The notes below the pieces were generated by a model. That model worked only from the letters and a program-made list of their open reading frames with translations, had not been told where the DNA came from and searched no databases. Positions 44,354 through 45,976 of a stretch of 64,000 nt of DNA are shown here, piece after piece. Origin of the DNA: Flavobacteriaceae bacterium (GTDB lineage: Bacteria; Bacteroidota; Bacteroidia; Flavobacteriales; Flavobacteriaceae); contig JAUXPJ010000005.1 in NCBI GenBank assembly GCA_030683815.1, forward strand, positions 62,001 through 126,000, in the 5' to 3' direction. Position 1 is the first letter of the stretch, and each line of letters starts with the position of its first letter. Position numbers and translations under genes: made by a program.

Positions 44354-45976
44354 ATGTTAAGTGTTTCAAATTTATCGCTTCAATTCGGAAAAAGAATATT
44401 GTTTGATGATGTAAATGTCAGATTTACCAAAGGCAATTGTTATGGAATTATTGGCGCAAATGGTTCTGGTAAATCTACTTTTCTTAAAATTATTGCTGGA
44501 GATAAAACACCAACGACCGGAAATGTTCATTTAGAAACAGGAAAAAGAATGTCAGTTCTAAAACAAGAACACTCCGCTTTTGATGAATATCAAGTATTAG
44601 AAACCGTAATTATCGGAAATAAAAAATTATACAATCTTAAAAATGAGTTAGATACTATCTATGCTAAACCAGATTTTAACGAAGAAGATGGAATAAAAGC
44701 GGCTAATCTTGGATTGTTATTTGAAGAAATGGGTGGTTGGAATGCTGAAAGTAATGCAGCTTCATTGTTGTCATCATTAGGAATTAAAGATGATATGCAT
44801 TACACTTTAATGGGCGATATTGATGGAAAATCTAAAGTTCGTGTATTGTTGGCGCAAGCATTATTTGGAAATCCGGATGTACTTATTATGGATGAACCAA
44901 CCAATGATCTTGATTTTGAAACTATTGCATGGTTAGAAAATTTCATTGCCAACTATGATAACACTGTAATTGTTGTATCGCATGACCGTCACTTTTTAGA
45001 TTCAGTTTGTACGCACATTTCTGATATTGATTTCGGAAAAATAAATCACTTTTCCGGAAACTATACGTTTTGGTATGAGTCGAGTCAGTTAGCTGCCAGA
45101 CAACGCGCCCAACAAAACAAGAAATCTGATGAAAAACGTAAAGAATTGGAAGAATTTATCAGACGTTTTTCCGCCAATGTTGCAAAATCCAAGCAGGCGA
45201 CCAGTAGAAAAAAGATGCTGGAAAAATTAAATATTGATGAAATTAAACCCTCGAGCAGAAGATATCCGGCATTAATTTTTGATCGTGAACGGGAAGCCGG
45301 AGATCAGATATTAAATATTGAAAATCTTTCTAAATCGATAGATGGAGAACTGATGTTTTCCAATGTAAATTTCAATCTTAAGAAAGACGATAAAGTAGCA
45401 CTTATTTCAAAAAATTCAAGAGCTGTTACTGCCTTTTATGAGATATTGAACAACCTTCAAAAAGCTGATTCAGGAAATGTTCAATGGGGAATTACCACTT
45501 CACAATCGTATTTACCTTTAGATAATGCACCATTTTTCAATAATAATTTATCATTGGTAGATTGGTTGCGTCAGTGGGCAACTACTGAAGAAGAACGCGA
45601 AGAAGTATATTTACGCGGATTTTTAGGGAAAATGTTGTTTAGTGGTGAAGAAGCGCTAAAACAAAGCAATGTATTGTCTGGAGGAGAAAAAGTGCGTTGT
45701 ATGATTTCTCGAATGATGATGACAAAAGCTAATGTACTTTTACTGGATGAACCAACCAATCACTTGGATTTGGAGTCAATTCAGGCCTTTAATAATTCAT
45801 TGGCAAACTTTAAAGGAACGGTAATTTTTACAACTCATGACCATGAGTTTGCTCAAACAGTTGCTAATAGAGTTATTGAATTAACGCCTAAAGGAATTAT
45901 AGATAGATATATGTCTTTTGATGAATATCTAGATGACAAGAAAATTAAAGAACTGAGAGCAGAAATGTATAGTTAA
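44354..45976 (+). CDS. ABC-F family ATPase (YbiT-like), with one degenerate nucleotide site
   Basis: A 540-residue soluble double-ABC protein without membrane segments, of the ribosome-associated ABC-F family. First domain: Walker [10 protein letters not shown] at 34-42 and Walker [13 protein letters not shown] near 177-188, but the signature region reads [12 protein letters not shown] instead of LSGGxxxR. A linker with basic helices (about 245-300) follows. Second domain: Walker A is replaced by ISKNSRAVT (351-359), while the signature LSGGEKVRC and Walker [13 protein letters not shown] are intact. ABC-F proteins bind the ribosomal E site; its exact role is unknown. Confidence 0.93.

Follow-up and report, generated by a model that had tools for sequence, protein, structure and literature searches.

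The gene at positions 44354 to 45976 on the forward strand of the window, a 64,000-nucleotide stretch of a Flavobacteriaceae genome, encodes an ABC-F protein that appears to have kept one of its two ATP sites and lost the other, and this raises the question of whether such a protein works on a single ATP and what has become of its second pocket. In ABC-F proteins ATP site I is formed by the Walker A motif of domain 1 (Walker A1) and the signature of domain 2 (signature 2), and site II by Walker A2 and signature 1. The original prediction proposed that site I of this protein is good and that both halves of site II had been lost together.

The open reading frame was confirmed as real by ORF analysis (ATG at 44354, stop codon at 45974-45976) and encodes 540 amino acids. 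A Pfam search of the product found the domain content of an ABC-F protein, with ABC_tran present twice and ABC_tran_Xtn (PF12848) matched once at 72.6 bits over residues 224-305; AAA_21, which overlaps Walker A1, was the sole further family above cut-off, and no membrane domain family was matched. The inter-domain linker, which in ABC-F proteins is the region holding the P-site tRNA interaction motif, lies at approximately 45044-45301 (+). Among solved structures the strongest sequence match is E. coli YbiT at 506 bits, ahead of EttA at 269 bits, and the alignment with the E. coli YbiT chain of PDB 9njf extends over the full length with two small gaps. Our tree split 117 YbiT-clade sequences from 17 other ABC-F sequences (SH-aLRT 99) and placed the window protein on the YbiT side. 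The highest-scoring NCBIfam family was NF011646 (PRK15064 equivalog, YbiT) at 621 bits, which misses the curated cut-off of 762; among five other YbiT-clade sequences scored against this model, four also failed (L158, 692 bits; L131, 681; L134, 644; L205, 599) and one passed (L145, 1035). An AlphaFold model of the protein (mean pLDDT 87, pTM 0.75) gave 9njf as its best structural match (Z 34.6 over 529 residues, rmsd 4.2), with human ABCF1 (Z 33.1), EttA (30.8), YheS (30.6) and Uup (29.0) also matched and the first 21 ranks all taken by ABC-F proteins. The gene encodes a YbiT/YkpA-type ABC-F, probably a ribosome helper. An antibiotic-resistance ABC-F was considered and rejected, as no resistance model reached its cut-off among the best 25 of 191 matched families: NF000355 scored 326 bits against a cut-off of 380, and Vga, Msr, Lsa, Sal, OptrA and others fell short of theirs by far more. 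Four other ABC-F genes of the same genome (L140-L143) all have Walker A2 and signature 1 intact, the latter reading FSGGW in two of them and LSGGE and LSGGQ in the others. We also noted that the paralog with LSGGQ (L143, C17:88000-91000) has alanine in place of the first glycine of Walker A1 (AKNGSGKTS).

The gene stands alone, with one divergent and one convergent neighbour. A TAnnTTTG box, a pattern known from Bacteroidota promoters, lies upstream at 44324-44331, and a scan of the region for sigma-70-like promoter sites returned 5 against 8.9 expected. A terminator-like hairpin of 15 pairs follows the gene at 45975-46008 (+), one of 3 such sites in the region against 1.0 expected. The divergent upstream ORF (42795-44180, -) had no Pfam match and an N-terminus that is lipoprotein-like by eye; of 137 flanked loci, 43 gave a match to the upstream neighbour next to the ABC-F gene, and 6 and 5 gave one to the downstream neighbours, the flanks being short. 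On the convergent side lie two small ORFs, neither of which matched Pfam, together with a sigma-70 region 2/4 gene. Another gene of the region (40767-42698, -) codes for an RNA helicase of the DEAD-box type that carries a DbpA RNA-binding domain; its long tail is of low complexity, with Arg, Ser, Gly and Asp abundant.

All motifs of site I were found in canonical or intact form on the forward strand: Walker A1 (GANGSGKST, residues 34-42, 44453-44479), Q-loop Gln71 (44564-44566), Walker B1 (LIMDE, 44882-44896), H-switch His210 (44981-44983) and signature 2 (LSGGE, residues 441-445, 45674-45688). A two-site ABC-F ATPase has a Walker A and a signature at both sites, and the window protein has the pair at site I only. 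Judged by its motifs, site II has no Walker A2, no Q-loop 2 and no signature 1: the position of Walker A2 reads SKNSRAVTA (residues 352-360, 45407-45433, +), the Q-loop glutamine is replaced by Leu389 (45518-45520, +), and signature 1 is the degenerate DIDGKSKVR (44816-44842, +; core IDGKS, residues 156-160). Site II does retain Walker B2 with its glutamate (LLLDE, Glu466, 45737-45751, +) and the H-switch His495 (45836-45838, +). A normal P-loop or signature displaced by a few residues would have undone this reading, but alignments of 145 and 223 sequences revealed none and bear out the proposed arrangement of one good and one degenerate site.

To define how widely the arrangement occurs we read 223 aligned sequences, of which 17 were set aside as other ABC-F proteins (the 4 paralogs and 13 of the 80 loci from a search of wider phyla), leaving 206 YbiT-clade sequences; L001 and L144 are both the window protein itself and were counted once, and two sequences truncated at the start (L132) or the end (L208) were retained with their gaps set aside. 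Walker A2 was scored as standard only where the first Gly, the last Gly, the Lys and the Ser/Thr were all present, and otherwise as dead. By this measure it is missing in 177 of the 206 sequences and present in 29. The 177 comprise 147 from Bacteroidota (131 from the set of the window's own phylum, window protein included, and 16 named), 26 from Bacillota, 3 from Spirochaetota and 1 from Thermodesulfobacteriota; as the wider-phyla loci were the best 80 of 597 matched stretches, these are the counts of a sample. Within it, every sequence from Bacillota, Spirochaetota and Thermodesulfobacteriota was of the dead type, which rules out a trait of Bacteroidota only. The original prediction had named Bacteroidota alone as the home of related degenerate members. 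The 29 intact sequences were E. coli YbiT and 16 others from Pseudomonadota, 7 that come from the window's phylum, 2 from Acidobacteriota and 1 each from Chlamydiota, Campylobacterota and Gemmatimonadota. The Q-loop 2 glutamine is present in all 29 intact sequences and in 5 of the 177 dead ones.

We also found a sharp difference between the two sites in how far they vary. Across the branch without Walker A2, site I is complete and unvarying in sequence from Walker A1 to signature 2: G34, G37, G39, K40 and S41 are invariant in the 176 dead sequences that cover Walker A1 (one is cut short there), and Gln71, D180 and E181 of Walker B1, His210, and S442, G443, G444 and E445 of signature 2 are present in 177 of 177. 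The tree was built by a quick method from 134 of the 223 sequences (all 80 wider-phyla loci, the window protein, and 53 others hand-selected to be diverse) with the site-II columns left out, and long branches were flagged, including L208 at the border of the YbiT clade. On this tree the state of Walker A2 switches once, and the 88 dead sequences, the window protein among them, form one clade with support of 100. Within that clade we counted 0 residue changes at 12 catalytic positions of site I and 274 at the 12 matching positions of site II, with site II exceeding site I at 12 of 12 matched positions (sign test, p = 0.0005). Among the 29 sequences with Walker A2 intact, site II varies only at the signature (6, 4 and 2 changes) and the Ser/Thr (5), and site I changes at the Ser/Thr (2). 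Entropies from 108 sequences thinned at 85% identity gave 2.06 bits for Walker A2 against 0.05 for Walker A1, 3.05 against 0 for the Q-loops and 1.25 against 0 for the H-switches, with a domain-2 mean of 1.37 bits. The description of site I as frozen and site II as released is thus supported.

A loss of both halves of site II as one coordinated event, as had been claimed, is not supported. Signature 1 lacks its Ser-Gly-Gly core in 27 of the 29 sequences with Walker A2 intact, E. coli YbiT included (the exceptions are L205 and L208), so that decay of the signature needs no loss of Walker A2. Parsimony places the loss of the signature 1 core close to the root of the YbiT clade, L159 being one apparent reversal, and the loss of Walker A2 later, in one branch inside the clade. 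L159, from Bacillus timonensis, is the sole sequence among the 177 that combines a lost Walker A2 with a canonical signature 1 (LSGGE). A test for co-loss of Walker A2 and signature 1 on the tree had one independent pair. Different lineages carry different broken signatures (VAPGW, LPTDL, LQGGQ, LSGNE and others), and for this reason the signature may have decayed on more than one occasion. The loss of Walker A2 in turn looks stepwise, since its lysine is still present in 22 of the 177 dead sequences, 19 of which also have the first Gly and the Ser/Thr. Glu466 of Walker B2 is lost in 39 of the 177 and His495 in 33. In 15 of the 39, from the window's phylum and from Bacillota, glutamine stands in place of Glu466 (L089, L094, L102, L105, L107, L110, L111, L114, L118, L160, L176, L178, L180, L194 and L210).

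The closest relatives show a different pattern at site II. In the 66 sequences more than 72% identical to the window protein, itself included, Glu466 and His495 are present in 66 of 66, and every loss of either residue (39 for Glu466, 33 for His495) falls in the other 111 dead sequences. The old P-loop (45407-45436, residues 352-361) is fixed as a new motif in this group, with S352 in 66 of 66, S355, A357 and F361 each in 65, and a basic residue at 356 in 65; in the old signature, residue 157 is acidic in 65 of 66 and Lys159 is present in 62. Given these fixed residues, site II of the closest relatives seems to have been rebuilt and not to be drifting. Salt bridges among the basic residue 356, the acidic residue 157, Lys159, Glu466 and His495 could replace ATP in such a rebuilt pocket, but the pairing of these charges is conjecture. 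Mutual information between the two halves of site II over the 177 dead sequences was negative for such a contact: the block mean lay at the 52nd percentile (70 effective sequences, hence low power), and the best site-II pair, 159-356, ranked 2835 of 142845. In raw counts a basic 356 and an acidic 157 tend to occur together, 70 sequences having both, 13 the basic residue only, 37 the acidic residue only and 57 neither; corrected for the tree, charge pairing had too few independent pairs, and the few informative pairs of 356 and Glu466 lean the opposite way.

The gene is under purifying selection and, as originally predicted, has retained its ABC-F fold. Its dN/dS to three same-genus relatives was 0.032, 0.035 and 0.067 (whole gene, Nei-Gojobori), with values of 0.003-0.05 for the linker, 0.042-0.074 for domain 2 and 0.12, 0.05 and 0.125 for the site-II motif stretches, which lie above the whole gene on few changes; all of these are rough because synonymous sites are near saturation. 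An ortholog at 55% identity or more was found in 53 of the 60 genomes searched, its own included, of which 49 were read. In the phylum, 116 of 395 genomes matched at E <= 1e-100 with one match each, so that a second YbiT copy was not seen among the three candidates scored per genome; of the 116, 22 were left out and the 94 that were read divide into 87 dead and 7 intact. The degeneration is more than the chance decay of a single gene, as first proposed: the three same-genus relatives share it, and dN/dS to them is 0.03-0.07.

E. coli YbiT (NP_415341.1; PDB 9njf and 9nlf, EQ2 mutant) has the same domain order as the window protein and is 43% identical to it. Its signature 1 is also degenerate (VAPGW, against IDGKS in the window protein), but its other site-II motifs, from Walker A2 (GTNGVGKST, against SKNSRAVTA) and Q-loop 2 to Walker B2 and H-switch 2, are all intact. 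The Bacillota sequences are like the window protein in that Walker A2 is lost in 26 of 26 read, although several keep its lysine; in domain 1 the window protein shares 60% identity with L158 (Paenibacillus) and 57% with L168 (Bacillus). B. subtilis YkpA presumably has the same lost Walker A2 loop, and the branch very likely includes it.

In the available part of a study of M. tuberculosis EttA (PMC8782954), the two sites are used alternately, site I being fully engaged with the 30S subunit unrotated and site II with it rotated; conserved motifs are present at both EttA sites, unlike at site II of the window protein. The family's function, which had been called undefined, is partly defined, since the accessible text of PMC11381351 reports that B. 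subtilis YkpA/YbiT and E. coli YbiT aid ribosomes on charged stretches, with mild effects. Excerpts of PMC6723617 state that protein synthesis is inhibited by ATPase-deficient E. coli YbiT, and describe BdAF1 as a Bacteroidetes-only ABC-F subfamily of 176 species, which was considered as a possible assignment for the window protein. Pairs of one canonical and one degenerate composite site, as in the window protein, are listed in the portion consulted of a review (PMC7756269) for the ABCC family, ABCB2/B3, Pdr5 and ABCG5/G8, all of them membrane proteins, in which the degenerate site reportedly holds ATP. A Walker A change in a degenerate site has precedent there, because Walker A deviates in ABCG5/G8 and in yeast Pdr5, where four of four degenerate-site motifs deviate. 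The ABC-F/YbiT family and the degenerate ABC sites of exporters are thus already known; in the open-licence literature, as far as its text was available and with most subscription papers and preprints outside this scope, we found no description of a YbiT branch that lacks Walker A2, nor of YbiT or YkpA as having a degenerate site.

We consider it probable that the gene belongs to the branch of the YbiT clade that has lost Walker A2 (the YkpA branch) and that its protein operates with one ATP site. By analogy with YbiT and EttA complexes, from which the ribosome and nucleotide parts of the proposal are drawn, the protein most likely acts at the ribosomal E site, powered by one ATP. Holding that ATP at site I, it would close on the E site and be released once the ATP is hydrolysed, while site II would bind ATP weakly or not at all and hydrolyse none, its face serving as a nucleotide-free contact or hinge, and the site-II half-cycle of EttA would be absent or nucleotide-independent. 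Its cellular role, by comparison with YkpA and YbiT, would be to help ribosomes through difficult, chiefly charged, nascent sequences. The fuller proposition, that this multi-phylum branch of YbiT is a one-ATP ribosome factor whose site II gave up nucleotide binding, and that the close relatives rebuilt the empty pocket as a nucleotide-free contact, we advance tentatively, at slightly less than even chances. Points against the preferred single-site reading are the raised dN/dS of the site-II motif stretches, on few changes, a structural score for human ABCF1 close to that for YbiT, an NCBIfam score under the cut-off, and a quick tree with flagged long branches. Also counting against the one-ATP reading is the retention of Glu466 and His495 in all 66 closest sequences, which is odd for a functionless site and would suit a site II that still holds nucleotide in a remodelled pocket as a permanent scaffold, hydrolysing none, as in the asymmetric ABC exporters. 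Ser/Thr359 is present in 165 of the 177 dead sequences and Asp465 of Walker B2 in 169, and nucleotide binding at site II may persist in some relatives, to judge from the 22 that keep the Walker A2 lysine and the 19 of these that also keep the first Gly and the Ser/Thr. According to the part of the review available (PMC7756269), MgATP binding at degenerate sites is about on a par with that at canonical ones, and exporter sites are thought to hold it even with several deviating motifs, so that motif loss as in sites of the Pdr5 type is no proof of lost binding. Against such a scaffold, the three P-loop glycines, the lysine, the Q-loop glutamine and the partner signature are all gone in the window protein, and its predicted structure has a shorter Walker A2 loop: the strand ends at 352 and the helix starts from 355, against a helix from 357 in the model of Oceanimonas YbiT (L145, Walker A2 intact), with Walker A1 as an internal control identical in both (strand to 34, helix from 40). 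The loop thus appears two residues shorter, a small difference between ligand-free models. We regard the scaffold as unlikely, though worth keeping in mind.

The same evidence bears on two further explanations that dispense with a working single site. That the gene is a decaying or redundant ABC-F copy, a pseudogene in the making, would fit one degenerate catalytic site, but it is contradicted by the low dN/dS and by conservation (site I invariant over 177 sequences, an ortholog in 53 of 60 genomes and a single match in each of 116), and we hold it to be exceedingly improbable. A role independent of ATP, such as constitutive binding of the ribosome or another partner with neither site mattering, has nothing in its favour beyond the degenerate site itself; the 0 changes at 12 site-I positions over 88 sequences, catalytic Glu181 and His210 included, indicate selection for ATP hydrolysis at site I and make this role very unlikely. 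A single working ATP site remains the reading that we prefer.

With EQ2 mutants it has been hard to tell which step on the ribosome each ABC-F site drives, or whether two ATP are needed, because these mutants alter both sites together (PMC6723617, in the text available). The branch without Walker A2 would offer a natural single-site ABC-F, in which the two roles would be told apart by a single point change at each site. In 15 of its 177 sequences site II naturally carries the Glu-to-Gln substitution by which laboratories trap ABC-F proteins, and for B. subtilis YkpA stalling reporters already exist.
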